Origin: Rhizobium sp. SG_E_25_P2
GTDB lineage: Bacteria > Pseudomonadota > Alphaproteobacteria > Rhizobiales > Rhizobiaceae
Direction: 5' to 3'
Assembly: GCF_029892285.1 (NCBI RefSeq)
Contig: NZ_JARXVM010000003.1
Span: 248,001-312,000, forward strand
Length of the DNA: 64,000 nt
Shown here: piece after piece, positions 37,576 through 62,056 of the stretch
How the letters are laid out: the number at the start of each line of letters is the position of its first letter
Position numbering within the stretch: the stretch's first letter is position 1
The notes under the pieces: model-generated
The model's input: the letters and a program-made list of their open reading frames with translations, nothing else
The model's database searches: none
Told to the model about the DNA's origin: nothing
Translations under genes and position numbers: made by a program

Positions 37576-37583
37576 GGCTGGTC

Positions 37584-38387: not shown

Positions 38388-38390
38388 GGT

Positions 38391-39254: not shown

Positions 39255-39367
39255 CTCGGTTCCTTGCTTATGCTTTTGATAGGCGTGTCAGGTGTCAGCG
39301 CGCCAAGCTGACAGATCTCTCCCCACAGGCAGCGGGGGGAGATCACGTCAATGGTTCAAGCGCACGG

Positions 39368-40348: not shown

Positions 40349-40369
40349 GGGTTCCTCCTCGAGTGAAAA

Positions 40370-41884
40370 TCAGCCGCCAAGCTTCTGGATGGCGTGGGCG
40401 GTGTTGGCGAAAGCGATGTTCTTGGTTTCCATGTAGAAATCGAACGACCAGTCGCCGCCGTCGCGGCCGATGCCCGAATTCTTGACGCCGCCGAACGGCG
40501 TCGGGAGATGGCGTACATTTTCGGAATTCACCCAGATCATGCCGGCTTCAAGGGCGTCGGTGAAGCGGAAGGCGCGGGTGACGTCATTGGTCCAGACATA
40601 GCCGGTGAGGCCATATTCGACATCATTGGCGAGCGCGAGCGCCTCGCTTTCGCTCTTGAAGGGGATCGCGGTGAGAACCGGCCCGAAGATTTCCTCCTGG
40701 GCGATCCGCATCTGGTTGTTGGCGTTGGTGAACAAGGTGGGGGAGACATAGCAGCCGCCGCCAGGGCCGTCGAATTTCGCTCCACCCGCAGCGACCGTCG
40801 CGCCGCCCTGCTTGCCGATCTCGATATAGTCGAGCACCTTCTTTTCGTGTACCGGATGGATCAGCGGGCCGATGACGGTGGCGGGATCGAGCGGATGGCC
40901 GACCTTGATGCGCTTGGCCTTTTCGGCCACCATGCCGGTGAACGTCTCATAGATGCTTTCCTCCACCAGCAGGCGAGAGGAGGAGGTGCAGCGCTCGCCG
41001 TTCAGCGAATAGATCATGAAGACGGCTGCGTCGGCGGCGCGTTCGAGATCGGCATCGGCGAAAACCACCACGGGGTTCTTGCCGCCCAGTTCGAAGTGGA
41101 CGCGCTTGAGCGTGTCTGCGCCCTGCTTCATGATCATGGAACCGGTGCGGCTTTCGCCGACAAAGCCGATCGCCTTGATGTCGCGATGCTCGGTCAGCGC
41201 CCGGCCGGCATCCTCGCCGAAGCCGTTGACGAGATTCCAGACGCCTTTCGGCAGGCCAGCCTCCTCGGCGATTTCGACCAGCAACCGGGCCGTGAGCGGC
41301 GAAAATTCAGCCGGCTTGTGGACGATGGTGCAGCCGGCGGCCAGCGCCGGCGCGATCTTCCAGGTCGACAGCATGAACGGGGTGTTCCACGGCGTGATCA
41401 CGCCGACCGGACCGATGGGCGAGCGGGTGGTCATGTTCACCTGGCCTGAGGCGCGGAGCGTCTTGCCATCGCGGGCTTCCGGCGCGCGGTCCGCGAAGAA
41501 CCGGAAGTTTTCCGCGCCGCGCAGCGCCGCCTTGGCCATGAATTTTAGCGACTGCCCGGTGTCCATGCATTCGACGAAGGCGATCTCCTCGGCGCGCGCG
41601 ACAATGGCGTCGGCAATCTTGTGCAGCAGTTTCTTGCGCGCGGTTCCGTCCATCTGCGCCCAGCCGGGGAAGGCGGCCTTGGCGGCTTTCGCCGCGCGGT
41701 CAATGTCGGCCGCGCCGCCGCGCGCAATCTTGGAGATCGGCTTCAGATCAACAGGGGAAATGGTTTCGAACGTCGCGCCGTCCGCCGCAGCAACGTCTTC
41801 TCCGCCGATGCGGTTGAGCACTGTGTCTCCGAACTTCTCCAGATAGGTCCGGGCCTTTGCAATATTGTCATCAAGCTGCGACAT
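40370..41884 (-). CDS. hpaE: 5-carboxymethyl-2-hydroxymuconate semialdehyde dehydrogenase
   Basis: NAD-dependent aldehyde dehydrogenase of 504 residues that oxidises the HpaD product to the tricarboxylate. It has the ALDH signatures VITPWNTPFMLSTWKIAPAL, FELGGKNPVVVF (Glu) and NGERCTSSSRLLVE (nucleophile Cys), and ends with GGVKNSGIGRDGGDWSFDFYMETKNIA, which is characteristic of HpaE. ATG 41884 with GGAGAC upstream. Lies 21 bases ahead of hpaD and 68 bases after hpaF in the same operon. Confidence 0.95.
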   Translation of the reverse strand: MSQLDDNIAKARTYLEKFGDTVLNRIGGEDVAAADGATFETISPVDLKPISKIARGGAADIDRAAKAAKAAFPGWAQMDGTARKKLLHKIADAIVARAEEIAFVECMDTGQSLKFMAKAALRGAENFRFFADRAPEARDGKTLRASGQVNMTTRSPIGPVGVITPWNTPFMLSTWKIAPALAAGCTIVHKPAEFSPLTARLLVEIAEEAGLPKGVWNLVNGFGEDAGRALTEHRDIKAIGFVGESRTGSMIMKQGADTLKRVHFELGGKNPVVVFADADLERAADAAVFMIYSLNGERCTSSSRLLVEESIYETFTGMVAEKAKRIKVGHPLDPATVIGPLIHPVHEKKVLDYIEIGKQGGATVAAGGAKFDGPGGGCYVSPTLFTNANNQMRIAQEEIFGPVLTAIPFKSESEALALANDVEYGLTGYVWTNDVTRAFRFTDALEAGMIWVNSENVRHLPTPFGGVKNSGIGRDGGDWSFDFYMETKNIAFANTAHAIQKLGG

Positions 41885-41952
41885 GTCGTCTCCATCGGTC
41901 AGTCAGGCGCCCGCGGCACGGCCCGGGCAAACTATGTGTTCGGATCGGGTGA

Positions 41953-42345
41953 TTAGCCGCCCTGCGCCCGCAGGCGGGGATGGATGGCGTTCTTTTTCCA
42001 GCTGAACGCAGTGTCGATTTCGCGGATTTCGAGCGTCAGCGCGAAATGCGGGGTTGCGAATTGCGGCGCGAGAAATTTCGTGACGGCGGCGAAAATCGCC
42101 TCTCCGGTCTCCTTGCGATCGTCCTGGCTACGGCCCATGCCGACGCGGAACGACATATCGATGAAACCGTTGGCCTCGAGCAGGTCGGCGACCGCATAGG
42201 CATCGCAGCGGATGGCGCGAACACGCACAGCACCCAGTTCGAACAGGCCGGTGTCCAGGATCGTCTGGTGAACAACGCGACACAAAGCGGAAAAATCCAC
42301 TGCGTCGCCCAAATTGGCGGAATATTCCATTGTAAAGTGGGGCAT
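41953..42345 (-). CDS. hpaF: 5-carboxymethyl-2-hydroxymuconate delta-isomerase
   Basis: 130-residue member of the tautomerase superfamily (CHMI). It begins MPHFTMEYSANLGD, so after removal of Met the N-terminal proline is the catalytic base, as in the known enzyme. Later blocks are MSFRVGMGRSQDDRKETGEAIFAAV and FALTLEIREIDTAFSWKKN, typical for HpaF. It isomerises 5-carboxymethyl-2-hydroxymuconate. CGGGAGGATCC precedes the ATG. First gene of the hpaFEDGHI operon; a palindromic operator lies just upstream, shared with hpaR. Confidence 0.95.
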   Translation of the reverse strand: MPHFTMEYSANLGDAVDFSALCRVVHQTILDTGLFELGAVRVRAIRCDAYAVADLLEANGFIDMSFRVGMGRSQDDRKETGEAIFAAVTKFLAPQFATPHFALTLEIREIDTAFSWKKNAIHPRLRAQGG

Positions 42346-42370
42346 GGATCCTCCCGATCCGCTCTTGTAA

Positions 42371-42382
42371 TTAACATGTTAA
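42371..42382. promoter_or_regulatory. Palindromic operator between hpaF and hpaR
   Basis: Perfect 12-base palindrome TTAACATGTTAA, 26 bases upstream of hpaF and 70 upstream of hpaR. AT-rich palindromes of this kind are MarR-family sites; HpaR is the obvious ligand, by position. Confidence 0.7.
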
Positions 42383-42451
42383 CAAAATGATCGAGCTTGT
42401 CAAGCAGCTTGCGCGTCGATCTCCAGCGTTACGATTGCAAAAAGGCGGGAA

Positions 42452-42943
42452 ATGAAGTTAGAACCCGGCATGACAGAAAGACCGACCACCAAGATCGCCC
42501 AGGACGCCTTCTTGCCGCGCAACACCCGACGATCCCTGCCGATCGCATTGCTGCGCGCGCGCGAAGCCGTGATGAGCCACTTCCGGCCGATGCTGAGCGC
42601 TCATGACATGACCGAGCAGCAATGGCGCGTCATCCGCATTCTTGCCGAACAGGATACTGTCGACGCCTCCGAAATGGCCGATAAAGCCTTCATTTTGGCT
42701 CCCAGCCTGACACGGATCATCCGATCGCTCGAAGAGCGCGGCATCATCGCCAAGCTGAAGGACGCGAATGACGGACGCCGGGTTCTCCTGAAGATTACGC
42801 CGGCTGGCTTGGCCATCATCAATGAGGTCGCGCCAGAGAGCCGCATGATATACGAGCGCCTCGAGACGCATTTCGGGCCAGAAAAGATCGACCTTCTGCT
42901 TGACCTCCTCGACGAGATATCGACCTTTAACGAAGACGCGTGA
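42452..42943 (+). CDS. hpaR: Homoprotocatechuate operon repressor, MarR family
   Basis: MarR-type regulator of 163 residues. Typical HpaR beginning RRSLPIALLRAREAVMSHFRPMLSAHDMTEQQWRVIRIL, a winged helix TVDASEMADKAFILAPSLTRIIRSLEERGII and the wing DANDGRRVLLKITPAG. In the known system HpaR represses the meta-cleavage operon and is released by 4-hydroxyphenylacetate or its 3-hydroxy and dihydroxy analogs. ATG 42452 or a second ATG at 42470 may be the start. Divergent from hpaF with a shared palindrome; convergent with the kinase gene (6-base gap). Confidence 0.93.
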   Translation: MKLEPGMTERPTTKIAQDAFLPRNTRRSLPIALLRAREAVMSHFRPMLSAHDMTEQQWRVIRILAEQDTVDASEMADKAFILAPSLTRIIRSLEERGIIAKLKDANDGRRVLLKITPAGLAIINEVAPESRMIYERLETHFGPEKIDLLLDLLDEISTFNEDA

Positions 42944-42949
42944 ACCCGC

Positions 42950-43924
42950 TCAGACAGCATCGGATAGCGCTCGCGCTTCTGCGACATATCGCGCCAATCG
43001 TTCAGCGGAGTCCGGCAATTCCGGCCGGGCGCCGACCCAACCGATATAGGTGAGACTGCGCAACAGCAAGAAAAGCGGCAACTGGGCGAGATCGGCGTCG
43101 CTCAAATGTTTTTGGCTACGATAGCCGTGGATCAACGCGGCTTCGATCAGTTGATAAAGCGGTTCGTGACGGTTGCGCAAAAGTGTTGTGGCGATGTCAA
43201 ACAGCCGCCAACCGAAACCGCAATCATCAAAGTCGATAAAGGCGATGCCCGACGCGCCGATAAAGACGTTCTCGCGCACCAGATCGGCGTGAACAAGCCC
43301 GAAATCGAGCGTTTCGGCCACTTCGGCAAGGCGATCTCTCAATTGGCCGCGTAGCGCCACAAGATACCGCCGGTCGATCTCGGCAAGCCCCGCCACATCC
43401 CAGAAACGGCCCCAGACAGGTTGTTCGCCAAGAAGTCCATTCGCGTCCCATTGAGGGCGTGAAAAATGCGCGGGACGCCGCCAGCGGTCGGCGATTTCAT
43501 GCATCCTGGCCATGGATGCTCCGATGTCGTGAAACAGAGCTTCCAGTTCGTCGGCGCCCTGGGCAAGCGGCGCGCCGGATTCGCCCAGGGGGACGCCGTC
43601 GACCCAATCGATCAGGTCCGCAAATTGCGGCTCGTCTCCATCAAGCGAAATCAACAGCCGTCCATCAGACGCTGCGATCGGTTCTGGCGCCCGAAGTCCA
43701 TTTCGCCGCAGGTCGTCCATCCAGTGCAATTCGGACAGAAGCGCCCATTCGGAGTGGTATCCCGGCCGATGCAGCCGGAGCGCGGCCTTTTGACCATGGG
43801 CGAGGCGGACTTTGAAAACGGCGTTCTCGCGATATTTCAGCAACTGCGGGGTTTGGTCCTGCAGATCCCAGGCCGCCATGGCCCTGATGGCGCGGGCTTG
43901 CAAATCGTCAATGATTGCACTCAC
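42950..43924 (-). CDS. APH-family small-molecule kinase (hydroxylysine/homoserine-kinase-like)
   Basis: Aminoglycoside-phosphotransferase-fold kinase of 324 residues. The N-lobe has LLKYRENAVFKVRLAHGQKAALRLHRP (nucleotide-binding Lys). The catalytic loop is H212-A-D214-L-V-R-E-N219 and the metal Asp is in IAFIDFDDCGFG (about 231-233). APH members next to class III aminotransferase-fold phospholyases phosphorylate hydroxylated amines (mammalian hydroxylysine kinase with 5-phosphohydroxylysine phospho-lyase is the established precedent). Here the gene starts at GTG 43924, two bases after the stop of such an aminotransferase. Last gene of the IclR operon. The substrate is inferred to be a beta-hydroxy-amine; see findings. 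Confidence 0.85.
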   Translation of the reverse strand: MSAIIDDLQARAIRAMAAWDLQDQTPQLLKYRENAVFKVRLAHGQKAALRLHRPGYHSEWALLSELHWMDDLRRNGLRAPEPIAASDGRLLISLDGDEPQFADLIDWVDGVPLGESGAPLAQGADELEALFHDIGASMARMHEIADRWRRPAHFSRPQWDANGLLGEQPVWGRFWDVAGLAEIDRRYLVALRGQLRDRLAEVAETLDFGLVHADLVRENVFIGASGIAFIDFDDCGFGWRLFDIATTLLRNRHEPLYQLIEAALIHGYRSQKHLSDADLAQLPLFLLLRSLTYIGWVGARPELPDSAERLARYVAEARALSDAV

Positions 43925-43926
43925 GG

Positions 43927-45210
43927 TCAGAGCCCCGCCAACACGTCGTCGAGTGTTTGCAGCATGAGATCCGCATTGTCTTGGCTGAAAGGCATCGGCG
44001 GACGGATCTTGGTGGCGTTCTGGTGAATTCCAAGTTTGCCCATCAAGACGCCGCGCTGCCGCATCTCGTTGATCACGGTCGTGGCGAGATTGGTTGCCGG
44101 CTCCCTGGTTTTCTGATCGAGCACCAGTTCGGCTCCGAAAAACAGCCCGCTGCCGCGGACATTGCCAATCAGATCATGCTTTTCCGCCAGCCGCGACAGG
44201 CCGTCGCGCGCATATTCGCCCACGACGCGGGCGTTTTCCATCAGCAGTTCGTCCGTCAACACATCCAGCACTGCCGAGGCGGCTGCGCAGGACACTGGAT
44301 TGCCGCCGAAGGTATTGAAATAGCGGAAAGCCTTGCGGAAGGCGTTCAATGTGTCCGAGCTCGCCACGACGCCGCCAATTGGATGGCCATTTCCCATCGG
44401 CTTGCCGAGGGTGACGACGTCGGGAACGATCCCGGCGCGCTGATGCCCCCACATATGCGTGCCGGTGCGACCAAAGCCCGGTTGTACTTCATCGCAGATC
44501 AAAAGGCCGCCGGCTTTGCGGACCAGATCAGCTGCTTTCTTGAGAAAGCCGTCGGGCAGTTCGGGGAAACCTTCATTGGCGAAGAAGGGGTCGATGATCA
44601 GAGCCGAAAAGCCATGGGGCGACGCCTGCAGGGAGGCGATCGCTTCCTCGATCGCCTGGGCCCAGGCATTGGTGAATGCCTCGCCCGGTTCGCCGCCCAG
44701 TGGCCGATACCCGTCGGGCGCTGGCACATGCCGGACATGGCCGCCGTAACCGCCGACCGGCGGCATGCGGGTCGACAGCTGCGACACTGCGGCGGTGTTG
44801 CCGTGATAGGTACGGTCTGTCGCGATCACCCCGGTTTTGCCGGTCACGGCTTGGGCCATGCGCAGCGCGATATCGTTGGCCTCGCTGCCGGTGCAGGTGA
44901 GGATTGCGGTGTCCAGGCTTTCATGGAAGGTCGCCGTCAGCTTCTCGACATAATCGAGAATGCCTTCATGCAGATACCGCGTATGGGTGTTGAGCATGGA
45001 AGCCTGCTTGCAGATGGCCTCGACCACGCGAGGGTGACAATGGCCGACATGCGGGACATTGTTATAGCAGTCGAGATAGCGTTTGCCGTCTGCATCCCAG
45101 AGCCAGACGCCCTCTGCCTTCACCAGATGAACGGGGTCGAGATAGAATGTCGACATGTTTTTGCCAAGCAGTCGCTCGCGGCGGGCGAGAAGCGCGGTCT
45201 TGTCGTTCAT
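43927..45210 (-). CDS. Class III aminotransferase-fold enzyme, phospholyase-like (AGXT2L-type)
   Basis: PLP enzyme of 427 residues. It has YLDCYNNVPHVGHCHPRVVEAI, LTCTGSEANDIALR, the Asp of LLICDEVQPGFGRTG and the Schiff-base Lys of VTLGKPMGNGHP. The CYNNVPHVGHCHP and FFANEGFPELPDGF blocks are those of ethanolamine-phosphate and phosphohydroxylysine phospho-lyases rather than of ordinary omega-transaminases. Such enzymes eliminate phosphate and ammonia to yield an aldehyde. It starts at ATG 45210, one base after the upstream aminotransferase stop, with GGGAGGCAAG. Directly followed by the APH kinase gene, the expected partner. Confidence 0.85.
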   Translation of the reverse strand: MNDKTALLARRERLLGKNMSTFYLDPVHLVKAEGVWLWDADGKRYLDCYNNVPHVGHCHPRVVEAICKQASMLNTHTRYLHEGILDYVEKLTATFHESLDTAILTCTGSEANDIALRMAQAVTGKTGVIATDRTYHGNTAAVSQLSTRMPPVGGYGGHVRHVPAPDGYRPLGGEPGEAFTNAWAQAIEEAIASLQASPHGFSALIIDPFFANEGFPELPDGFLKKAADLVRKAGGLLICDEVQPGFGRTGTHMWGHQRAGIVPDVVTLGKPMGNGHPIGGVVASSDTLNAFRKAFRYFNTFGGNPVSCAAASAVLDVLTDELLMENARVVGEYARDGLSRLAEKHDLIGNVRGSGLFFGAELVLDQKTREPATNLATTVINEMRQRGVLMGKLGIHQNATKIRPPMPFSQDNADLMLQTLDDVLAGL

Positions 45211-45211
45211 C

Positions 45212-46573
45212 TCACTTGCCTCCCGTCGCAGCATGAAGGCCTGCGTCCACCGCAGACACGATCCGGGATACATCCTTCGCGGTCACGACGAGCGGCGGCG
45301 AGATAATGACGTTGCAGCCGGATGTTCGGATCATCACCCCCTCGGCATAGGCCGTGTCGAAGACCTTCTGAACCACATCCTTGGCGGCTCCAGCCTTGGT
45401 CTTGCGGTCGGAGACGAGCTCCAGCGCGCACATCAGGCCGCGGCCGCGCACATCGCCGACCAGTTCATGCGTGTCCATAAGAGCCTGAAGGCCGGCCAAC
45501 AACTCGTCGCCGCGCGCCGCCGCATTGGCGGCGACATTCAGGCGGCTTGTTTCCTTGAGTGTGGCCAGCGCCGCCGCAGCGCCGACGGGATGACCGGAAT
45601 AGGTATAGCCGTGGCCGATCGACCCGATCGCCCCCTTTGAATTTTCAAACGCAGTTGCGATCTTGTCGGCGATCATCACGGCGCCGAACGGGAAATAGCC
45701 ATTGGTGATCGCCTTGGCGGCGCACATGAAGTCGGGCTTGACGCCCCAGCCGCGAGAACCGGTCCAGGCTCCGGTGCGGCCGAATGCGGTGATCACCTCG
45801 TCTGCGATCAGCAGAATGCCGTGACGGTCGCAGATGCCGCGCATCAGCGGCATGAAGGTTTCGTGTGGAACGATGACGCCGCCCGACCCCAACACCGGCT
45901 CCATGATCATCGCGGCAATCGTGTCGGCGCCCTGGAAGGCGATTTCGTCCTCGAACTGGCGGGCGATCGCCTGGGCGATTTCTGCGGGATCGGACGTGTT
46001 GAATGGGTTGCGGTATTCATAGGGCGCGGCGAGATGAAAGACGCCTGGCAGCAGCGGTTCATAGTTGCGGCGGAAATTGGCGTTGCCGTTCACGGAGGCG
46101 CCACCGAAATGGGTGCCGTGATAGCCCTTCTTCAGAGCCACGAATTTGGTGCGCTCCGGCTGGCCGTTGATCTTGTGATACTGGCGAGCCAGGCGAAGGG
46201 CAGTTTCCACTGAATCCGACCCGCCCGAGGTGAAGAAGGCGCGTGTCAGTCCGTCTTCCTTGAACCATTCCGACAGTTCATAGGACAGTTCGATCGCCTT
46301 GTCGGTGGAAGTGCCGCGAAAGGCGGAGTAGTAGGGCAGGGCGTCAAGCTGATCGCGGATCGCCTGCTTTACCGGTTCGCAGGAGTAGCCGAGATTGACA
46401 TTCCAGAGGCCGCCGACGGCGTCGAGCAGCGTCTTGCCGTTGACATCGGTGACTTCGACGCCTTCGGCTGCCTGGATGATATGCGGCGGGTTGGTCTGCA
46501 TTTCAGCGGGATGCGCCATGGGATGCCACATATGGCGCGCATTGTTCTCGGTCAGGAAGTTGGTTTCACGCAT
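45212..46573 (-). CDS. Class III omega-aminotransferase (pyruvate-type)
   Basis: PLP-dependent aminotransferase of 453 residues. It has HMWHPMAHPAEMQTNPP at the N-terminus, FFTSGGSDSVETALRLARQYH, LLIADEVITAFGRTG (PLP Asp) and MCAAKAITNGYFPFGAVM (Schiff-base Lys). The pattern matches beta-alanine/taurine/omega-amino acid:pyruvate transaminases. ATG 46573 follows GTGAGG; a TTG at 46603 overlapping the HAD stop is less likely. Differs clearly from the phospholyase-like neighbour; it could transaminate a primary amine (for example an arylethylamine) or recycle amino groups to alanine. Confidence 0.9.
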   Translation of the reverse strand: MRETNFLTENNARHMWHPMAHPAEMQTNPPHIIQAAEGVEVTDVNGKTLLDAVGGLWNVNLGYSCEPVKQAIRDQLDALPYYSAFRGTSTDKAIELSYELSEWFKEDGLTRAFFTSGGSDSVETALRLARQYHKINGQPERTKFVALKKGYHGTHFGGASVNGNANFRRNYEPLLPGVFHLAAPYEYRNPFNTSDPAEIAQAIARQFEDEIAFQGADTIAAMIMEPVLGSGGVIVPHETFMPLMRGICDRHGILLIADEVITAFGRTGAWTGSRGWGVKPDFMCAAKAITNGYFPFGAVMIADKIATAFENSKGAIGSIGHGYTYSGHPVGAAAALATLKETSRLNVAANAAARGDELLAGLQALMDTHELVGDVRGRGLMCALELVSDRKTKAGAAKDVVQKVFDTAYAEGVMIRTSGCNVIISPPLVVTAKDVSRIVSAVDAGLHAATGGK

Positions 46574-46599
46574 CGGGGTCCTCACATAATCCGGTTGAT

Positions 46600-47259
46600 T
46601 CAAAGTCCGAGCAACTGAAGTGCGCGGCGATAGCTGTCGGCGGGGCGGGTGACGTCGAAATGCACATGCGGCAGGCCGACGGCGACCGCTCCCTCTATGT
46701 TCTTGGCCTGATCGTCGACGAAAACGCAGTTTTCGCGGTCCAGCCCGAGTTCGGCGAGAACGAGTTCATAGGCCCTGGGATCGGGCTTGAGGATCTGTGT
46801 GTAGGTGGCGTCGACGATCACGTCGAAGAGTTCGATCAGGGGAAATCGTTTGCGGAAATCCACGCCGTAGAAAAGATCGAGCTCATTGGACAGGATAGCC
46901 AGTTTCAGACCCGCGGCGTGCGCGGTCAGGATCGCGTCACGCGCCTCTGGCCGCAACACCAGTTCCGGCTCGGCGCCGCGAGCGCGCTGCACAAAGGTCT
47001 TCATGTCCGTCCAGGTTTCTCCGACAAGCGCGCCGACCTCCCGCGTTCGGCTCATCCAGTAGTCGCGTTCGGTGATCTCTCGCGCCTGCATACGCTCCCA
47101 CAACCGATCGGACGACGGATCGAAGGGGCCGCGCCAGGTCAAGGAGCCGGGCTGAAGACCGAGTGCGCGCTCCGTCTCGTCATGGGTCTCGAAAAGTGTT
47201 CGGGTTACGACCCCGCCAAAATCGAGGATCAGCGCCTTTTGTGAATTGTCCGTGCTCAT
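46600..47259 (-). CDS. HAD-superfamily hydrolase (subfamily IA)
   Basis: Haloacid-dehalogenase-like hydrolase of 219 residues. Motif I KALILDFGGVVTR (nucleophile Asp13), motif II LAILSN (Ser), motif III Lys in LKPDPRAYE and motif IV CVFVDDQAKNIEGA. The small helical cap is of the C1 type. Likely a phosphatase acting on a small phosphorylated metabolite, which would fit a kinase-containing pathway (repair or removal of a dead-end phosphate ester). Its ATG overlaps the UPF0261 stop (ATGA). No specificity can be read from sequence. Confidence 0.88.
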   Translation of the reverse strand: MSTDNSQKALILDFGGVVTRTLFETHDETERALGLQPGSLTWRGPFDPSSDRLWERMQAREITERDYWMSRTREVGALVGETWTDMKTFVQRARGAEPELVLRPEARDAILTAHAAGLKLAILSNELDLFYGVDFRKRFPLIELFDVIVDATYTQILKPDPRAYELVLAELGLDRENCVFVDDQAKNIEGAVAVGLPHVHFDVTRPADSYRRALQLLGL

Positions 47260-48509
47260 GGGCGTCCCTTTGCGACGAGTCCCTCTTCCACCCAGGCATC
47301 GAGAATTTCGAGCGCCTTGGCGGCAAATTCGGGCGAATTGATATGGGCGTCGATCTCTTCATACCGCGCAGTGGCAGGCACGGCCTGGCGCATCGCGTCG
47401 ATGAAAGCGTTGAGCGCGTCTGGCTCATGCAGCGGCTCGCCCTTCTGATCCCATTCCTGGATCCCCTGGATCGGCAGGATAAAGGCAACGGGCGACGCTA
47501 CGCCCGACAGTTTTGCGCCAATGACCTCGGCTATCTCGCGACGCCCGGCAGGATCGGTGGTGATGGAGGCGATCAGCCTGTTATGGGCATGAAAGGGCCG
47601 TTCGGCGAAGCGTTGGGGCAGGGGGCTCCAGGCCTGCAGGTCCACCATGTCAACCGCCCCCGGCGCCACGATCTGCGGAATTCCGGCCAAGCCCGCATTT
47701 TCCATCCGATCCGGCCCGGAAGTGACGACGGTGCCATTGTGGTGATTGGAGATTTCCTGGATGCAGAAATCGAAGACTGCGGCAAAGCCCTTTTGGGCCG
47801 CGATCGCCTCGAACGCCCGTCCGCCCATGCCGGTGGCGTGAAAGACGGCGACGTCATAGCCCCGGCGTTCGAGCTCGGGCCTGAGATATTTCATATATTT
47901 GAGGCAGGAAGATCCAAGTGAGGTCATTCCGATCAGCGGTCGGTCGCCTTTCGGTCGTGCGCCGTGGCGCGCGGCGCCAACGACGGCGCCGCAAGCCTGG
48001 GACAGAACAGAGCCACAGATATCGTTCAGCCCGTAGAGACCTCCCGCCCACAGGATCATCATCAAATCGGGGGCGATCCGTTCCGGCGGGATAAGATGCG
48101 AATAGGCGATGGTGGAAACCACGAATTTGGGAATGCCAAGCGGCAAGACGGCCGCGACGTCGAGTGCGAGATCGGTGCCCATGGAGCCGCCAAGCGCGAC
48201 CATTCCGTCTACCCCGCCCTCTTCAAAGAGGGTTCTGACGAGCGTGCATGCTCCTTTCGCCATCATCGCCATCGAGCTGTTTTCATCGCCGCTGTCGATT
48301 ATGTCCTGGATCGTAGCGTTGACCGCGAAGGCAATGTCATGCCGTGAGAAATCGGGTGTATAGGGCGGGTCTCCCAGCACGCTGACATCAATCATCACGG
48401 CCTGTCCGCCGGCTTGCGCGATTGTCCTGGCCATGAAGGTCAATTCGTCGCTTTTGGTGTCGCCAGTGCCGATCACCACTATCCTGGGTTTGCGCGCTTG
48501 ATCGCTCAT
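47256..48509 (-). CDS. UPF0261 / Tm-1-like ATP-binding domain protein
   Basis: 417-residue protein of the UPF0261 family, named after the N-terminal ATP-binding domain of tomato Tm-1. Landmarks are VVIGTGDTKSDELTFMARTI, DGMVALGGSMGTDLALDVAAVLPLGIPK, IGMTSLGSSCLKYMKYL, VFHATGMGGRAFE and PGAVDMVDLQAWSPLP. Usually a separate TIM-barrel partner is encoded next to it, but none is seen here. The biochemical role is unknown in bacteria; it occurs in catabolic operons. Overlaps both neighbours (IclR stop, HAD start) by ATGA, so it is part of a rigidly coupled operon. Confidence 0.9.
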   Translation of the reverse strand: MSDQARKPRIVVIGTGDTKSDELTFMARTIAQAGGQAVMIDVSVLGDPPYTPDFSRHDIAFAVNATIQDIIDSGDENSSMAMMAKGACTLVRTLFEEGGVDGMVALGGSMGTDLALDVAAVLPLGIPKFVVSTIAYSHLIPPERIAPDLMMILWAGGLYGLNDICGSVLSQACGAVVGAARHGARPKGDRPLIGMTSLGSSCLKYMKYLRPELERRGYDVAVFHATGMGGRAFEAIAAQKGFAAVFDFCIQEISNHHNGTVVTSGPDRMENAGLAGIPQIVAPGAVDMVDLQAWSPLPQRFAERPFHAHNRLIASITTDPAGRREIAEVIGAKLSGVASPVAFILPIQGIQEWDQKGEPLHEPDALNAFIDAMRQAVPATARYEEIDAHINSPEFAAKALEILDAWVEEGLVAKGRP

Positions 48510-49294
48510 CCCGTTTCTCTCCCTCGTTGCAGCGCCGCCTGTTCCTTGCGGTCGACGCCGAAAAATGCTTCTGAAATCCGTCTGGCTGCTGCTGCGGCGG
48601 CAAGCCCGTGCTGCCTGATTCTGGCGGCATCCGTGCGCACCAAGGGCGCTGCCACGGTGATGCAGCCGATCGGCCTTGCTTTCGGATCCGATATTGCCGC
48701 GGACGTGCTGAAGACCCCTGCCTCCATGCCCTGGCGATTGATGGAGTAACCGTCGGTGCGCGTCTGTTCGATCGCCTTGCGGAAGGACGCTTCGTCGCAG
48801 GTGGTGTAGTTGGTGAACGCCGGCATCGGACCGGTCGCCGCCGCGTCCACGTCCTTGTCGGGACAGGCTGCGATGAAGGCGAGACCGGATGCGGTTGCGT
48901 GAAACGGCAACAACGTTCCGATGGCAATGAAGACCCGATGCGCCTTGGTCGAATCTTCGACATACACTGTCGATAGGCGGCCGCCGGAGTATTCAGACAG
49001 GTGAACTGTTTCGCCGCAGTCTTCCATCAACTGACGAACGAAAGGAATGGCGGTTTTCAGAAACGGATAGCGCGCCTCGCGGATGCGTCCGAGTCTAACC
49101 GGAGCCGAACCCAGACGGTACTTTCGGTTGTCAGGGAGCTGCTCCACGAAGCCATGCTTTTCAAGCTCGACGAGGAAGCGTCTCGTGGTCGCCTTGTCCA
49201 GCCCGCAGGCGACGGCGACCTCGGTGAGGCCCGCATCCCTATCCATGAGCGATAGCGTGTCCAGCAATGTCAGAGCTTTACTGATCGTTCCCAT
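48506..49294 (-). CDS. IclR-family regulator
   Basis: Regulator of 262 residues. The winged helix is TISKALTLLDTLSLMDRDAGLTEVAVACGLDKATTRRFL (about 2-40), followed by the IclR effector domain (YPFLKTAIPFVRQLMEDCGETVHLSEY, RVFIAIGTLLPFHATASGLAFIA, INRQGMEAGVFSTSAAI). Start ATG 49294 has GAGGAAAA; the open frame to 49444 runs through the promoter. It overlaps the next gene (ATGA), so it is the first gene of the six-gene operon it probably regulates, together with the divergent permease-dehydrogenase unit. A GGTT...AACC dyad lies upstream. Confidence 0.93.
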   Translation of the reverse strand: MGTISKALTLLDTLSLMDRDAGLTEVAVACGLDKATTRRFLVELEKHGFVEQLPDNRKYRLGSAPVRLGRIREARYPFLKTAIPFVRQLMEDCGETVHLSEYSGGRLSTVYVEDSTKAHRVFIAIGTLLPFHATASGLAFIAACPDKDVDAAATGPMPAFTNYTTCDEASFRKAIEQTRTDGYSINRQGMEAGVFSTSAAISDPKARPIGCITVAAPLVRTDAARIRQHGLAAAAAARRISEAFFGVDRKEQAALQRGRETG

Positions 49295-49437
49295 TTTTTC
49301 CTCGTGTTCCGGACTTTCGAGTCCGGTTCTGGTGGTTTCCCACCCGTCAAGCGCGCCTTCGCCAGCGCCGAGATACTTAACATGCGAAATAACTTGACAG
49401 GTGACGCGGCTTTTTGCAAGTCTATATTTGAAGCACT

Positions 49438-49454
49438 GGTTCATTATTTAAACC
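49438..49454. promoter_or_regulatory. Dyad in the IclR/permease intergenic region
   Basis: GGTTCATTATTTAAACC, 6 of 8 base pairs symmetric around a central A, about 145 bases upstream of the IclR start and 115 upstream of the permease start. Candidate IclR operator controlling both directions. Confidence 0.45.
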
Positions 49455-49568
49455 ATGCTTAGGCCGGTTTGCAAAGAGCACTCAAAACAGCCGCAGCCGG
49501 ATCGAACTGGAGGATCGTCGCCCATCGGTGGCGGAAAAATCGCAACGCCAAAGGGGAGCTTACGCGAT

Positions 49569-51020
49569 ATGAGCAATTCAACCACACAAGCGGGCGCTGA
49601 CAACCGCCTGCGCAAGAACAGCCTCGGCGTCAGCGCCGTCACATTCCTGGTGGTCTCGGCAGCCGCGCCGTTGACGGCGGTCGCCGGTGGCGTACCGCTG
49701 GCCATGCTGCTGGGCAACGGATCCGGCATTCCCTTGACCTTTCTGCTGGTCACCGCGATCCTGATCTCTTTTGCGGTCGGATATGTCGCCATGGCCCGGC
49801 ATATTCGAAACGCTGGCGCTTTCTACGCCTATACGGCGCAGGGACTGGGCGGCATGATGGGCGGCGCCGCCGCTTTGATCGCAATCCTCGCTTACAATGC
49901 GATGCAGATCGGCGTTTTCGGTCTGTTTGGAGCTGCCACTTCAGGTCTCTTCGCCGGTTGGGGACTGGACCTGCCATGGTGGGTCTGGACTTATATCGGC
50001 ATCGCGGCCGTCGCTGTTTTCGGTTACCGTCGTGTCGACCTGTCCGCCAAGGTGCTGACCATCCTGGTTATTCTAGAATATCTCGTCGTGTTGGTGATTG
50101 ACGTCGCGATCCTGTTGACCGGCGGCGACAGCGGCCTTTCCATGACGCCATTCACGCCCTCGGCATTTATGAACGGCGTGCCGGCAATTGGAATTCTATT
50201 CTGCTTTGCCGCCTTCATCGGTTTCGAGGCCACGACGATCTATAGCGAAGAAGCCCGCGAGCCGCACAAGACCGTGCCGCGCGCCACCTATATCTCGGTG
50301 GTCATCATCGGCCTGTTTTACATGCTGACATCGTGGCTGATGGTCGTCGGCGCCGGCGTCGACAAACTCGTGCCTGAATTGCAGGGGCTGCAGGATCCCA
50401 CGAGCTTCCTGTTCGGTCTCGCCGATCGCTATGTTGGTCACGGCATCGGCGTCGTCATGGGAGTCTTATTGGTCACCAGCCTGTTTGCCGGCGTGCTGGC
50501 TTTCCACAACGGCGTCGCCCGTTACATCTATGTCGCCGGCCGCGAAGGCCTGCTGCCGAAGAGCGTGGGTGTCACCCATCCGAAATATCAGAGCCCGCAT
50601 GTTGGCTCCGTCATCCAGACGGTGATCGCAGTTCTCGTGGTCGCCTTGTTCGCGGCGACGGGACAGGATCCCGTGCTGGCGCTGTTCTCCTGGCTCACCA
50701 ATGTCGGAACGCTGGCGATCATTTTCCTGATGGCGCTGACCGCCTTCTCGATCCTGACATTCTTCAGCCGTCATCCGGCGTTGGAGAAGAATGTGGTCGT
50801 TACCAAACTTCTGCCGGTGATTACCGGTGTGATCCTGCTCGCGCTTGTCTACAAGATTGCGGTGGATTTCGGAGCGATCGCCGGCGCCAATGGTTTCCTT
50901 GCCGTGTTCCTGCCGGGTCTGGTGCTGATCGCGGGCGCGATCGGTCTCATCCTGGCGGCGCGCCTGAAAGCTGCCGATCCGGCTGCTTTTGCAAGATTGG
51001 GCGCCGGTCAGGACAGTTGA
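49569..51020 (+). CDS. APC-superfamily amino acid/amine permease
   Basis: Inner-membrane permease of 483 residues with about 12 hydrophobic segments. The N-terminus GVSAVTFLVVSAAAPLTAVAGGVP is the APC signature in TM1 (SAAAP), and later FCFAAFIGFEATTIYSEEAREPHKTVPRA is the TM6/TM7 block. Related to putrescine/amino acid importers (PuuP/YhdG-like). ATG 49569 with GGGGAGC upstream; the frame from 49455 has no support. Divergent from the IclR operon and followed by an aldehyde dehydrogenase, so it probably imports the amine degraded by these genes. Confidence 0.9.
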   Translation: MSNSTTQAGADNRLRKNSLGVSAVTFLVVSAAAPLTAVAGGVPLAMLLGNGSGIPLTFLLVTAILISFAVGYVAMARHIRNAGAFYAYTAQGLGGMMGGAAALIAILAYNAMQIGVFGLFGAATSGLFAGWGLDLPWWVWTYIGIAAVAVFGYRRVDLSAKVLTILVILEYLVVLVIDVAILLTGGDSGLSMTPFTPSAFMNGVPAIGILFCFAAFIGFEATTIYSEEAREPHKTVPRATYISVVIIGLFYMLTSWLMVVGAGVDKLVPELQGLQDPTSFLFGLADRYVGHGIGVVMGVLLVTSLFAGVLAFHNGVARYIYVAGREGLLPKSVGVTHPKYQSPHVGSVIQTVIAVLVVALFAATGQDPVLALFSWLTNVGTLAIIFLMALTAFSILTFFSRHPALEKNVVVTKLLPVITGVILLALVYKIAVDFGAIAGANGFLAVFLPGLVLIAGAIGLILAARLKAADPAAFARLGAGQDS

Positions 51021-51034
51021 TAGCACAGCCAACG

Positions 51035-51059
51035 GATGGCGGGCCTCACGCCCGCCATC
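51035..51059 (+). other. Strong hairpin between permease and dehydrogenase genes
   Basis: Perfect 10-bp stem GATGGCGGGC-CTCAC-GCCCGCCATC, 15 bases past the permease stop, without a T run. It may act as partial terminator or processing signal that sets different levels for the permease and the dehydrogenase. Confidence 0.55.
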
Positions 51060-51080
51060 TTCATAAAAAGGGACGGAACC

Positions 51081-52559
51081 ATGCAGGACAAGATCGATTT
51101 ACTGCGCCATCAGACGCTGGAACCGCAGTCGCTGTTTATTGGCGGCGACTGGATGCAGGCCCGCAGCGGCGCGACGATGGGGGTAATTTCACCGCTTGAC
51201 GGGCGCCGCCTCACCACCATCGCCGATGCGGGCGCGGAGGATGTCGATCTGGCTGTCAAGGCGGCGCGCTCTGCATTCGACAAGGGCGGCTGGTCGAAAG
51301 CGACGCCGGTCGAACGCAAGAAGGTGTTGATGAAGATCGCCGATCTGATCGACAAACATGCGCTCGAACTGGCGGTGCTCGGCGTGCGCGACAATGGCAC
51401 CGAAATTTCCATGGCGCTGAAGGCGGAGCCCGGCAGCGCCGCGAGCACGTTCCGCTATTATGCGGAGGCCATCGACAAGGTCTATGGCGAGATCGCGCCG
51501 ACCGCCGCCAATGTTCTCGGGCTGATTCATCGCGAGCCGGTCGGGGTGGTCGCGGCCATCGTGCCCTGGAATTTCCCGATGATGATCGGGGCCTGGAAGA
51601 TCGCGCCGGCCCTGGCGGCTGGAAATTCGGTCGTGCTCAAGCCGGCCGAAGGCGCGTCTCTGACCCTATTGCGGCTTGCGGCGCTTTGCGCCGAAGCAGG
51701 ATTGCCCGAGGGCGTTCTGAACGTCGTCACGGGCCGCGGCGCCGTCTCTGGCGAGGCGCTCGGCCTGCATATGGATATCGACGTCCTCGCCTTTACCGGT
51801 TCGGGTCCGGTCGGTCGGCGGCTGCTTGAATACTCGGCCCGATCCAATCTCAAGCGAGTCTATCTCGAATTGGGCGGCAAATCGCCCAACATCGTGTTCG
51901 CCGACGCGCCTGATCTCGATCAGGCGGCGAAAGTCTCCGCTTACGGAATCTTCCGCAATTCCGGACAGGTTTGCGTCGCCGGGTCGCGCCTGCTTGTCGA
52001 GAAAAGCGTGCATGCCGAGTTTTCGCAAAAAGTAGCCTCGTTCGCCGCCTCGATGAAGCTCGGCGATCCGCTCGATCTCAAGACTGAGGCCGGCGCGATC
52101 TCAAGCGAGATCCAGTTGATGAAGGATCTCAGCTATGCCGAACAGGCTCTCGCCGAGGGAGCGCATTTGCTGACAGGCGGTAAGCGCATTCTGGAGGAAA
52201 CGGGCGGCTATTTCATGCAGCCGACAGTTTTTGATGTGGAGCCGTCCATGACGCTTGCCCGGGAGGAAGTATTCGGTCCCATTTTGTCCATCCTCCCCTT
52301 TGATGGCGAAGAGGAAGCCCTGCGGATCGCCAACGCCACCGAATATGGCCTGGCCTCCGCCGTCTGGACTTCCAACCTGTCGCGCGCCCATCGCATGGTG
52401 CGTGGCGTCAAGGCCGGCGTCGTGCATGTGAACACCTATGGCGGCAGCGACAACACGGTTCCGCTCGGCGGCGTCAAGCAATCCGGCAACGGCCATGACA
52501 AGTCTCTGCATGCGTTCGACAAATATATCGACCTGAAGACCGCCTGGATCCAGCTCTGA
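51081..52559 (+). CDS. Aldehyde dehydrogenase, PuuC/phenylacetaldehyde-dehydrogenase-like
   Basis: NAD(P)-dependent aldehyde dehydrogenase of 492 residues. It has VAAIVPWNFPMMIGAWKIAPALAAGN, the catalytic Glu in VYLELGGKSPNIVF and the nucleophile Cys in NSGQVCVAGSRLLVEKSVH. The C-terminal GVKQSGNGHDKSLHAFDKYIDLKTAW is very like PuuC and phenylacetaldehyde dehydrogenases, which oxidise amine-derived aldehydes. Starts at ATG 51081. Linked to the permease and, across the divergent IclR promoter, to the kinase/phospholyase operon; hydroxyphenylacetaldehyde to hydroxyphenylacetate is the reaction that would feed hpaBC next door. Confidence 0.9.
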   Translation: MQDKIDLLRHQTLEPQSLFIGGDWMQARSGATMGVISPLDGRRLTTIADAGAEDVDLAVKAARSAFDKGGWSKATPVERKKVLMKIADLIDKHALELAVLGVRDNGTEISMALKAEPGSAASTFRYYAEAIDKVYGEIAPTAANVLGLIHREPVGVVAAIVPWNFPMMIGAWKIAPALAAGNSVVLKPAEGASLTLLRLAALCAEAGLPEGVLNVVTGRGAVSGEALGLHMDIDVLAFTGSGPVGRRLLEYSARSNLKRVYLELGGKSPNIVFADAPDLDQAAKVSAYGIFRNSGQVCVAGSRLLVEKSVHAEFSQKVASFAASMKLGDPLDLKTEAGAISSEIQLMKDLSYAEQALAEGAHLLTGGKRILEETGGYFMQPTVFDVEPSMTLAREEVFGPILSILPFDGEEEALRIANATEYGLASAVWTSNLSRAHRMVRGVKAGVVHVNTYGGSDNTVPLGGVKQSGNGHDKSLHAFDKYIDLKTAWIQL

Positions 52560-52695: not shown

Positions 52696-53208
52696 TTATC
52701 CGCCGAAGCTGCCGACCTGAGACGGCACCCGCACGTAATTGCGATCGAAATAGAGCAGCGCCTCGCCGTCGGGTCGCGACCGGATGCCGATCACCTGGCC
52801 GATGAAGATATTGTGCGTTCCGACCAGTTTCGCCTCGACCAGGTGGCAGTCGAACGACACCATAGCATCCGCGAGCGCCTGACTTCCGGAGGGCATGTCC
52901 ACCCAGTTCGCCGCCGCATAGCGGGCGGACATGTCCGCCTGCTTGCCCGCGAAATAGCCTGCCAGCTCCTGATGGTCGTTGGCGAGCACATTGACGCAAA
53001 ACCGGCGATTTTCCAGGAATAGGCCGGATTGCGCCGATTTTCCGTTCATGCAGACAAGCAGCGTCGGCGGCTCGTCGGTGACGCTGCACATGGCGGTGGC
53101 GGTGAAGCCGCCGCGTCCAGCCGGGCCATTGGTGGTGATCACGTTGACCGGGGCGCAGACCCGGGACATCGCGTCGCGAAAGTCGGTTTTCGAAACCGTA
53201 TCCTCCAT
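52696..53208 (-). CDS. hpaC: 4-hydroxyphenylacetate 3-monooxygenase, flavin reductase component
   Basis: Small NAD(P)H:flavin oxidoreductase of 170 residues. It supplies reduced flavin to HpaB. Family blocks are DFRDAMSRVCAPVNVITTNGPAGRGGFTATAMCSVTDEPPTLLVCMN (start of the flavin reductase domain, flavin-binding TATA..SV) and FCVNVLANDHQELAGYFAG, with a terminal RNYVRVPSQVG. ATG 53208 is preceded by AGGAGAAAGACC; it begins 12 bases after the hpaB stop. The gene ends just before a strong terminator. Confidence 0.93.
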   Translation of the reverse strand: MEDTVSKTDFRDAMSRVCAPVNVITTNGPAGRGGFTATAMCSVTDEPPTLLVCMNGKSAQSGLFLENRRFCVNVLANDHQELAGYFAGKQADMSARYAAANWVDMPSGSQALADAMVSFDCHLVEAKLVGTHNIFIGQVIGIRSRPDGEALLYFDRNYVRVPSQVGSFGG

Positions 53209-53219
53209 GGTCTTTCTCC

Positions 53220-54785
53220 TCATCCCTGGGTGAGAGGGTTGAGCCAGGTGTCGCCGGTCCAGCCGTTCTCGTCGTAATCGCTCATGCAGGCGTCCACCAG
53301 CGCTTCCATTTCGCGAAGGCGACCGCCGCGCTCGGCGCCCTTCAGCACCTGAAGACGGACTTCTTCCGGCGCGCCAGCATAGTTAAGTTCATAGAGCGCG
53401 TGGCGGCCGCCGAATTCTGTGCCGGTCGCGTCCCAGAGGAGCTTCATGATTTTGATGCGCTCGATATGGCCCATGTTGTCGGAGCCGCGCACATATTGCG
53501 CCAGATAGCGGTCGATCTCTGGATTGGCAAAATCCTTGGCCGAGGAGGGCAGGTAGATCAGCCCGGAGGCGACCGTGCGGCGCACGATGTCGATGACCTT
53601 CGGATAGGCCTCCGACATGAAGGTGCGATAGCACAACGCAGCTTCGAGATTGGGAAGGACAGTGCCGTTCGCCCAGGGGATCGGATTGTGCGCCATGGCG
53701 TTGGAGAAGGTCCAGAACTGGTGCCGGATGGCGATTACCTCACCCAGCATGGCCTGATTGCCGCGGAACGCGTCGCCGCCTGTGGCGCGCAAGGCCTTCG
53801 CCAACAGGCCGGCGATGAAGTCCAGCTTCACCGCTAGACGCGTGCAGCCTTGGAAGCAGTAGCCGTGCATGAAGCCCGATGCCGGGTGGAAAGAGAGGAT
53901 CTTGGCCGCATCGCGCAGCACCAGCACGTCTTCCCAGGGGATAAACACATTGTCGAGCACGAGAATGGCGTCGTTCTCATCAAAGCGCGACGACAGCGGG
54001 TAGTCGAAAGGCGTGCCGACGGTGTTGGCCGTCTGCTCATAGGAGACGCGGCAGAACATCTTGATGCCTGGTGCGTTCATCGGCACGATGAACATGACCG
54101 ACAGAGACGGATCTTCCGTCACCGTCGCCGAACTCTGGGCAAGGAAATTGTAGTGTGTTAGCGCCGAGGAGGTCGCGACGACCTTCGCGCCGGACACATA
54201 GATGCCGGCGTCGGTTTCCTTGGTGATGTGGACGAAGACGTCCTTGACGGCGTCGGCGGGCTTGTGGCGATCGATCGGCGGATTGACGATCGCATGGTTC
54301 ATGAACAGCACGCTTTCCTGCGCGCGCTTGTGCCAGGCGAGAGCATTGTCCTTGAACTGGCCGTACCAATCGGCATTGGCGCCGAGCGTGTTCATCAGCG
54401 CCGCCTTGTAATCGGCGGTGCGGCCCATCCAGCCATAGGACATGCGAGCCCAATCGGCGATCGCGCCCTGCTGGGCGACCAGGTCCTCCGACGATTTCGC
54501 CACGCGGAAATATTTATGGGTGTAGCCGCCATTGCCGGTGTCGGTGGGTGAGGTCAGCCTCTCCTTCGTCTTTTCCGCATGCAGCGCATCATACATGCGC
54601 GCGATGGAGCGGGCGGAATTGCGCATTGACGGATGCGACGTCACATCGGCCACGCGTTCTCCGTTGACATAGACTTCGCGACCATCGCGCAGGGATGCGA
54701 GATATTCCTCGCCGGTGAAGGGGCGCGTCTTTTCGCTGCGATAATCCTCGGCCAACATGCCGGGGCGACGGGTCTGAATATTCAT
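53220..54785 (-). CDS. hpaB: 4-hydroxyphenylacetate 3-monooxygenase, oxygenase component
   Basis: FADH2-dependent monooxygenase of 521 residues, the size of HpaB. It hydroxylates 4-hydroxyphenylacetate to homoprotocatechuate. It has HITKETDAGIYVSGAKVVATSSALTHYNFLAQ, TPFDYPLSSRFDENDAILVLDNVFIPWEDV and SGLIYLPSSAKDFANPE...RIKIMKLLWDATGTEFGGRHALYE, all very typical. CAAAGGAGGAG precedes the ATG. Forms an operon with hpaC and is divergent from hpaA, which in the known system activates it. Connects the amine genes with the meta-cleavage operon. Confidence 0.96.
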   Translation of the reverse strand: MNIQTRRPGMLAEDYRSEKTRPFTGEEYLASLRDGREVYVNGERVADVTSHPSMRNSARSIARMYDALHAEKTKERLTSPTDTGNGGYTHKYFRVAKSSEDLVAQQGAIADWARMSYGWMGRTADYKAALMNTLGANADWYGQFKDNALAWHKRAQESVLFMNHAIVNPPIDRHKPADAVKDVFVHITKETDAGIYVSGAKVVATSSALTHYNFLAQSSATVTEDPSLSVMFIVPMNAPGIKMFCRVSYEQTANTVGTPFDYPLSSRFDENDAILVLDNVFIPWEDVLVLRDAAKILSFHPASGFMHGYCFQGCTRLAVKLDFIAGLLAKALRATGGDAFRGNQAMLGEVIAIRHQFWTFSNAMAHNPIPWANGTVLPNLEAALCYRTFMSEAYPKVIDIVRRTVASGLIYLPSSAKDFANPEIDRYLAQYVRGSDNMGHIERIKIMKLLWDATGTEFGGRHALYELNYAGAPEEVRLQVLKGAERGGRLREMEALVDACMSDYDENGWTGDTWLNPLTQG

Positions 54786-54884
54786 GGAACTCCTCCTTTG
54801 ACATTGATCAAGATGTTAGGTCTTGAACTCGCCGCTCGCCATGCACAGAATGGCAAAATCACTTGCACTTTTTCAGGCCTCGCG

Positions 54885-59103: not shown

Positions 59104-59118
59104 CGCTTCATCCGTTCA

Positions 59119-60375: not shown

Positions 60376-60445
60376 TTGGCTCTCCTCCAGTTGTTGTATG
60401 TCGCCCGTGGGCGGACGACCGGCCGCCTCCGATCAGCCGGTCTTC

Positions 60446-62054: not shown

Positions 62055-62056
62055 GG

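Follow-up and report, generated by a model that had tools for sequence, protein, structure and literature searches.

A kinase and a phospho-lyase-type gene within the hpa island of a Rhizobium: a candidate phosphorylation-elimination route for octopamine-type amines

We analyzed a 64,000-nucleotide stretch of the genome of Rhizobium sp. SG_E_25_P2 (contig NZ_JARXVM010000003.1, positions 248,001 to 312,000; G000:C3:248001-312000 in our coordinates), hereafter the window, in which an island of hydroxyphenylacetate (hpa) genes encloses two adjacent genes, one for an APH-family kinase (KIN) and one for a class III enzyme dependent on pyridoxal phosphate (PLP) that we call PLY. A sequence-only reading of this DNA had proposed that KIN and PLY are coupled and would phosphorylate a hydroxylated aromatic amine and then eliminate phosphate and ammonia, and that a divergent unit supplies an amine permease and a PuuC-like aldehyde dehydrogenase (ALDH). 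It had placed the whole set between hpaR-hpaFEDGHI and hpaBC-hpaA. Open reading frames (ORFs) were called by codon scoring; calling by length only had let antisense ORFs mask real genes. The features of the island are as follows.

42950-43924, minus strand: KIN, an APH-family small-molecule kinase (PF01636, match to 6ef6, conserved residues), proposed 2-aryl-2-hydroxyethylamine O-kinase
43927-45210, minus strand: PLY, a phospho-lyase-type class III PLP enzyme (matches to 5g4i and 6tor, clade membership, K270), proposed aryl-ethanolamine-phosphate phospho-lyase
45212-46603, minus strand: AT2, a second class III aminotransferase (NF005683 above cut-off), proposed aromatic-amine transaminase of tyramine/dopamine type
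46600-47259, minus strand: HAD-IA hydrolase (PF00702), found in 36/80 related loci
47256-48509, minus strand: UPF0261 / Tm-1-like ATP-binding protein (NF002676 above cut-off), tied to hpa islands
48506-49444, minus strand: IclR-type regulator heading the run (PF01614, PF09339), found in 52/80 related loci; its actual start probably lies within this ORF
49455-51020, plus strand: APC-family permease (AA_permease_2, PF13520; codon-scored start 49569), found in 25/80 related loci, proposed amine importer
51036-52559, plus strand: ALDH (PF00171), found in 55/80 related loci, proposed hydroxyphenylacetaldehyde dehydrogenase
52696-53223, minus strand: hpaC, flavin reductase (RutF 188.6 and HpaC 152.9 bits, both below cut-off)
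53220-54785, minus strand: hpaB, oxygenase component of 4-hydroxyphenylacetate 3-monooxygenase (TIGR02310; 90.5% identical to an annotated Rhizobium leguminosarum gene)
54633-55760, plus strand: hpaA-type AraC regulator (PF12833; codon-scored start 54885)
42452-42943, plus strand: hpaR, MarR-type regulator, convergent with the kinase gene (75.5% identical to an annotated R. leguminosarum hpaR)
36763-42345, minus strand: hpaF-hpaE-hpaD-hpaG-hpaH-hpaI, homoprotocatechuate meta-cleavage (72-90% identical to R. leguminosarum genes)

KIN and PLY are separated by 2 bp and belong to a minus-strand run of touching or overlapping genes (IclR, UPF0261, HAD, AT2, PLY, KIN) from which the permease and ALDH genes diverge. 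The run is flanked by hpaR-hpaFEDGHI (36763-42943) on one side and hpaCB-hpaA (52696-55760) on the other, which is the order that the sequence-only reading had described; AT2, the HAD hydrolase, and UPF0261 had been left undescribed. The divergent unit was also read correctly: the permease is of the AA_permease_2 family and the ALDH matches the PuuC profile at 565.6 bits, under the cut-off of 850, the BADH and StyD profiles likewise matching below their cut-offs. HpaD (417.2 bits), HpaE (777.9 bits), and HpaI (406.6 bits) all score above the curated cut-offs of equivalog profiles, and HpaF is CHMI (PF02962, 1.2e-45). HpaB (763.7 bits, cut-off 885.2) and HpaC (cut-off 205.95) are family matches below cut-off. 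The hpaG, hpaH, hpaR, and hpaA genes are 65-82% identical to their counterparts in the annotated R. leguminosarum locus, where hpaG is named fumarylacetoacetate hydrolase family protein and hpaA helix-turn-helix protein. The best solved matches of AT2 are 6s54 (aspartate aminotransferase family protein) and 5lh9 (omega transaminase). A search for operators around the IclR gene returned just one weak palindrome, at 49442-49457.

KIN matches PF01636 at 87.9 bits (cut-off 23.2), and its best solved match, nearly full length, is 6ef6 (1.1e-44), which we take to be the aminopropanol kinase of a bacterial microcompartment; amicoumacin kinases come next at ~1e-15. Six residues (H212, D214, N219, D231, D233, and D234) are invariant in a 38-row alignment and presumably represent the catalytic HxDxxxxN and DxDD motifs of APH kinases. 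PLY matches PF00202 at 265.4 bits (cut-off 30.5). Among solved enzymes, it is closest to phospho-lyases, namely 5g4i (2.5e-120), presumably the Arthrobacter phospholyase of accession A1RDF1, and the ethanolamine-phosphate phospho-lyase 6tor (8.8e-105), while the best of the other class III enzymes is dialkylglycine decarboxylase (1.7e-62), with aminotransferases following from ~1e-55. K270, invariant in a six-row alignment and aligned with a lysine in both 5g4i and 6tor, is by motif presumably the PLP-binding lysine. PLY falls well short of the PbfA ammonia-lyase profile NF049939 (221.4 bits, cut-off 525). On this evidence, PLY is predicted to be a class III enzyme of phospho-lyase type.

We determined the distribution of PLY in an order sample of 297 genomes and a phylum sample of 398 genomes. 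In the order sample, its relatives fall into two groups, the first comprising eight genomes (the window's own included) at 65% identity or more, followed by a gap down to 54%; in the seven other genomes of this first group, the best match to KIN is the gene next to PLY. In the phylum sample, 10 of the 398 genomes match PLY at E ≤1e-160, all of them belonging either to the family of the window or to a single other family in the same class. We then compared 80 named loci, which are the best 80 of 584 confirmed candidates, so that tallies on them describe close relatives rather than all carriers. Their lyases are 62-88% identical to PLY and come mainly from Rhizobiaceae, Mesorhizobium relatives, and Rhodobacteraceae, with three Granulosicoccaceae bins. 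Together with PLY, they form one clade of 81 rows (SH-aLRT 97), beside which 5g4i branches with a support of 85, on a long branch that leaves its placement unsure. The predicted position of 43927-45210 among phospho-lyases is thus borne out by the phylogeny. Four residues (N212, E213, F215, and P216) are identical in 81/81 rows of the clade; the corresponding residues of 23 other phospholyases are different in every case or almost every case.

Coupling of the two genes is nearly invariable. Of the 80 loci, 76 have both genes, and in 75 of these KIN is the next gene downstream of PLY, on the same strand. The other genes of the window's run and divergent unit are frequent partners, with UPF0261 found in 58/80 loci, AT2 in 57/80, ALDH in 55/80, and IclR in 52/80, presence being scored by per-gene identity thresholds of our choosing, with a loose 30% for IclR. 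Core hpa genes occur within 10 kb in 35/80 clade loci and in 0/20 control phospholyase loci (P = 5e-5 by a Fisher test, which like our other Fisher values ignores relatedness), the controls having been picked by us, non-randomly, from the next-best phospholyases of the order sample (49-54% identical). None of these 20 loci has core hpa genes, AT2, UPF0261, or ALDH above threshold, and hpaB, C, D, F, G, H, and I find no match in them at E 1e-15, whatever the identity. Left out of the controls were two copies of a second phospholyase, 53% identical, which lie ~14 kb (G150:C1:38828-40063) and ~20 kb (G198:C2:823235-824473) from the hpa genes of the same island.

The linkage to hpa genes takes about eight gene orders. 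In some, hpa genes lie past KIN, which either faces hpaR, directly precedes hpaF-E-D-G-H-I on the same strand, faces hpaH, or is separated from hpaF by hpaABC. In others, hpa genes follow UPF0261, lie upstream of AT2, are split between PLY and KIN, or stand with hpaR before ALDH-AT2-PLY-KIN. On the lyase tree, the linkage state requires 13 changes, some absences being due to contig ends. A Rhizobium leguminosarum ATCC 14479 plasmid typed as conjugative (NZ_CP030763.1) matches the window in gene order except for an additional gene annotated gabD. Identity to the window's genes is 53-90%, and the annotated names are generic, for example "phosphotransferase" or "aspartate aminotransferase family protein"; the kinase and lyase genes of this locus are DLJ82_RS33845 and DLJ82_RS33850. 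Since the two genes are coupled in 75/76 loci and hpa linkage is seen in 35/80 clade loci vs. 0/20 controls, the arrangement is more than chance. The association, which might have been peculiar to one strain, is found in several genera and has been rearranged many times.

Genome-wide, CHMI is present in 59 of the 297 order genomes, including 8/8 carriers of the pair vs. 51/289 others (P = 1.6e-6). For the 80 named loci, we judged 35 from the locus itself and searched the whole genome for the 45 without core hpa genes nearby, finding CHMI elsewhere in 35/45. In the 10 genomes that remain, hmgA is present in 8/10, which is weak evidence by itself. Three loci offer a closer link to homogentisate genes. 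The cassette of Kandeliimicrobium roseum (L159/L225) has as its flanking genes those for a metallo-hydrolase and a flavin adenine dinucleotide (FAD) hydroxylase, hmgA, and fah. The same block adjoins UPF0261 and ALDH in Citreimonas salinaria (L143/L229), and in L110/L231, the cassette is followed by this block and then by hpaR-hpaFED-decarboxylase-hpaGHI. The first two genomes are without CHMI. The block, which in all three loci also holds a 68-aa-type protein, suggests a hydroxyphenylacetate-to-homogentisate route. Three other CHMI-lacking genomes with hmgA that we read (L227, L228, and L230) do not show hmgA linked to the pair. Because the hpa and homogentisate ring pathways both start from dihydroxyphenylacetates, the product of the cassette is most likely an arylacetate, in line with the earlier prediction of a hydroxyphenylacetate as acid product.

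Accessory genes in some loci offer further clues to the substrate. A decarboxylase matching 3,4-dihydroxyphenylalanine (DOPA) decarboxylase (7xin, 6.2e-120) and tyrosine decarboxylase occurs in 10/80 loci, a dimethylglycine-dehydrogenase-like protein (5l46, 1.7e-114) in 7/80, and an FAD hydroxylase in 5/80, adjoined by hmgA in three genomes. In locus L138 (3982-16532), one same-strand run encodes the dimethylglycine-dehydrogenase-like protein, UPF0261, ALDH, HAD, PLY, KIN, an SDR protein, EtfB-like and EtfA-like proteins, FolD, and PurU, as expected for removal of N-methyl groups to folate, and is a candidate N-demethylation front end. The decarboxylase and dimethylglycine-dehydrogenase-like genes are found in 0/20 control loci and point toward aromatic amines. 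Seven of the 80 pair loci (L114, L130, L133, L136, L146, L150, and L158) contain a P450 and a glutamine-synthetase-like gene, and four of them a 104-aa-type protein.

The hpa island also exists without the pair. UPF0261 of the window type (at least 49% identity) is present in 17/297 order genomes, of which 17/17 have CHMI and 9/17 are without a clade-type PLY. In four genomes of one genus (g3, Mesorhizobium), AT2-HAD-UPF0261-IclR and permease-ALDH adjoin hpa genes that include hpaFED, hpaR, hpaCB, and hpaA, PLY and KIN both being absent, and two other genomes of the genus (G069 and G209) do carry the pair. In G093, AT2 adjoins hpaR-hpaF with ALDH seen and no pair, and in two further pair-free genomes, the AT2-UPF0261 part lies ~11 kb (G202, ALDH seen) or ~9 kb (G098, ALDH not seen) from hpa genes; G224 and G181 could not be read as a single island. 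The same aminotransferase, UPF0261, and IclR genes are thus beside hpa genes, or within ~11 kb of them, in seven genomes without the pair, usually with ALDH (the UPF0261 subtype being seen near hpa genes in G105, G229, G248, G265, G202, G098, and G093; L254-L262). Since these seven pair-free genomes keep a similar hpa island, KIN-PLY supplements an amine module that feeds into hpa even without it. The pair is present or absent in otherwise similar islands of a single genus and is also found on a conjugative Rhizobium plasmid. The idea that the whole set serves a hydroxy-amine route therefore has to be narrowed; judging from these gene contents, only the pair would be specific to a beta-hydroxy-amine.

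Taken together, these findings make it likely, in our judgment, that the pair opens an entry route in which a 2-aryl-2-hydroxyethylamine of the octopamine type is phosphorylated, converted by elimination to an arylacetaldehyde, and oxidized before entering the Hpa pathway. We infer all of these enzymatic steps from family membership and genomic context. The route would take two steps and spend ATP, would serve octopamine, norepinephrine, and their N-methyl and ring-substituted relatives, and would be plugged into the hpa island. The APH-type KIN would phosphorylate the benzylic hydroxyl; PLY would then take phosphate and ammonia off Ar-CH(OPO3)-CH2-NH2 to leave the arylacetaldehyde, which the divergent ALDH would oxidize to the arylacetate. 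Hydroxyphenylacetate would finally be degraded by HpaBC and HpaDEFGHI, an established pathway whose enzymes are assigned here by homology. AT2, HAD, UPF0261, permease, ALDH, and IclR would form a core module for aromatic amines that also occurs independently of the pair and in which AT2 most likely handles non-hydroxylated amines (tyramine and dopamine) to give the same aldehyde. The pathway put forward in the sequence-only reading remains the best-supported one, with its specificity limited to the pair and its hpa linkage seen in multiple genera and rearranged many times.

Several observations weigh against this pathway. UPF0261 and HAD fill no role in the scheme. The characterized relatives are known to use small aliphatic substrates (phosphoethanolamine and aminopropanol), and the proposed pathway rests on context. 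In 10 of the 80 genomes, the locus lacks core hpa genes and no CHMI is found outside it, and in 21/80 clade loci, no more than two of KIN, AT2, UPF0261, and ALDH are present. We read eight of these 21 loci; the genes around the pair (around a lone lyase in L156) have other functions there, and an IclR gene is adjacent in two. In the phylum sample, there are seven pair-bearing genomes (two of them also among the 80), of which 3/7 are without CHMI, one of these three being without hmgA too, and four of the loci show the pair only. An aliphatic substrate may therefore apply, chiefly for loci with the pair only or with few partners.

We consider it unlikely that the pair acts on a small aliphatic hydroxyamine (ethanolamine, 1-amino-2-propanol, or hydroxylysine) and that it sits near hpa genes because catabolic islands are inherited together, with no pathway in common. 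The closest solved kinase (6ef6), presumably a microcompartment aminopropanol kinase, and the closest solved lyases (5g4i and ethanolamine-phosphate phospho-lyase) speak for it, as do the 21/80 loci with few cassette partners and the 3/7 phylum-sample carriers with no CHMI. Against it are the core hpa genes in 35/80 clade loci vs. 0/20 controls, the linkage in about eight arrangements, the homogentisate linkage in two genomes without CHMI, and a linked decarboxylase homolog of aromatic-amino-acid type. Furthermore, the window's own genome already has two other phospholyase paralogs, one at G000:C4:34634-36913 beside its own kinase and one at G000:C1:54217-57000 in a 1042-aa frame with an APH domain. 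These could serve ethanolamine-like compounds, which would weaken the case for an aliphatic substrate in the window. We had considered the fused copy as a guide to function and dropped it, as it is only 36% identical.

Also improbable, in our view, is a pair that acts on some other aryl hydroxyamine ending in arylacetate, for instance an N-methylated or ring-methoxylated one, with octopamine and norepinephrine as minor substrates. The dimethylglycine-dehydrogenase-like genes of 7/80 loci, with the operon that adds EtfAB-like proteins, FolD, and PurU, would fit such a substrate, and so would the P450 and glutamine-synthetase-like genes (7/80 loci) and the FAD hydroxylase (5/80 loci, with hmgA adjoining in three genomes). 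However, we saw no such accessory genes in the island of the window, most of the 80 loci lack them as well, and the amine left after demethylation would still be a 2-aryl-2-hydroxyethylamine. We regard as very improbable that PLY dehydrates or transaminates its substrate directly, without a phosphorylated intermediate and with a separate role for the kinase, since, although the older literature has octopamine and synephrine hydro-lyase activities that need no ATP, PLY resembles solved phospho-lyases far more than it does other class III enzymes, scores 221.4 against the PbfA cut-off of 525, and is coupled to a kinase in 75/76 loci. PbfA, a class III ammonia-lyase that releases water and not phosphate (PMC8154272), offers a precedent for such a direct reaction.

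The pathway that we favor, by way of a phosphorylated aryl-ethanolamine, resembles several known systems in part. PLY belongs to the same class III PLP sequence family as ethanolamine-phosphate phospho-lyase (ETNPPL, 6tor) and the Arthrobacter phospholyase 5g4i, its nearest solved relative. It differs from both in the residues N212, E213, F215, and P216 of its clade, save E213, which is common to 5g4i, and in a linkage to hpa genes that is absent from the 20 control loci. Whereas the best solved match of KIN, 6ef6, would be a microcompartment enzyme, KIN is partnered with arylacetate degradation genes, and the annotations available for two of the pair loci include no shell gene, although no dedicated search for shell genes was made. 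Hydroxylysine kinase and 5-phosphohydroxylysine phospho-lyase carry out the two-step chemistry of phosphorylation and elimination that we propose for the pair, but on an aliphatic amino acid; we know of no link between these enzymes and hpa genes. The overall conversion of a phenylethanolamine to hydroxyphenylacetaldehyde is that of octopamine hydro-lyase (EC 4.2.1.87) and synephrine dehydratase (EC 4.2.1.88), activities of Pseudomonas aeruginosa and Arthrobacter that, to our knowledge, have been described without ATP and without assigned genes. Finally, the window shares its ring-cleavage genes and arylacetate intermediate with the homoprotocatechuate pathway as entered from tyramine or dopamine. 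The classical entries are amine oxidases or dehydrogenases, whereas the window has an aminotransferase module and an optional kinase-lyase pair.

Other genes lie near the hpa genes or the pair. Beside hpaA, on the minus strand (55783-63460), are a gene for an LIV/urea-type ABC ATPase with its neighbors, a choline-dehydrogenase-like GMC oxidoreductase (60459-62054, minus strand), and a second ALDH with a phenylacetaldehyde-dehydrogenase-like score (62057-63460, minus strand). The latter two could feed hydroxyphenylethanols into the Hpa pathway. Past hpaI, there is a Vmh-family metallo-hydrolase-like gene (35343-36218, plus strand; 274.5 bits, cut-off 430), followed by a 131-aa protein. On a Shinella sp. 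plasmid (NZ_OZ000532.1; L235, 11289-16978), KIN is directly followed by genes for an AraC regulator, a siderophore receptor, a substrate-binding protein, and a siderophore-interacting protein. A link between these siderophore genes and the pair is conceivable, given the binding of iron by catecholamines.

Plants and animals both produce amines of the octopamine and norepinephrine type. For decades, bacteria have been known to grow on such amines, yet we know of no genes for a phosphorylating route to their degradation. One Biolog PM plate lists D,L-octopamine (PMC3390384). We recognized no description of this gene set in the literature searched, a set poor in subscription papers, which likewise yielded nothing that joins octopamine with homoprotocatechuate or a phospholyase with aminopropanol kinase. 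We lean, on balance, to the view that this is the first gene-level assignment of a phosphorylation-elimination route for the phenylethanolamine signaling amines octopamine, norepinephrine, and synephrine, that a two-gene add-on lets a tyramine/dopamine island take beta-hydroxylated amines, and that UPF0261, a family whose Pfam entry reads "uncharacterised," is a further part of aromatic-amine catabolism. The class III lyases documented in the accessible part of a 2021 paper are ethanolamine-phosphate phospho-lyase, one close relative, and that paper's own PbfA (PMC8154272). If our proposal is true, the pair would add a new substrate class to the class III phospho-lyase group, provide a gene marker for degraders of aryl-ethanolamines, and give a lead on the UPF0261 family. 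As far as can be predicted from genes and their neighbors, soil, root-nodule, and marine bacteria carry a removable two-gene module, often beside hydroxyphenylacetate genes, whose probable purpose is to let them eat octopamine- or noradrenaline-like amines.

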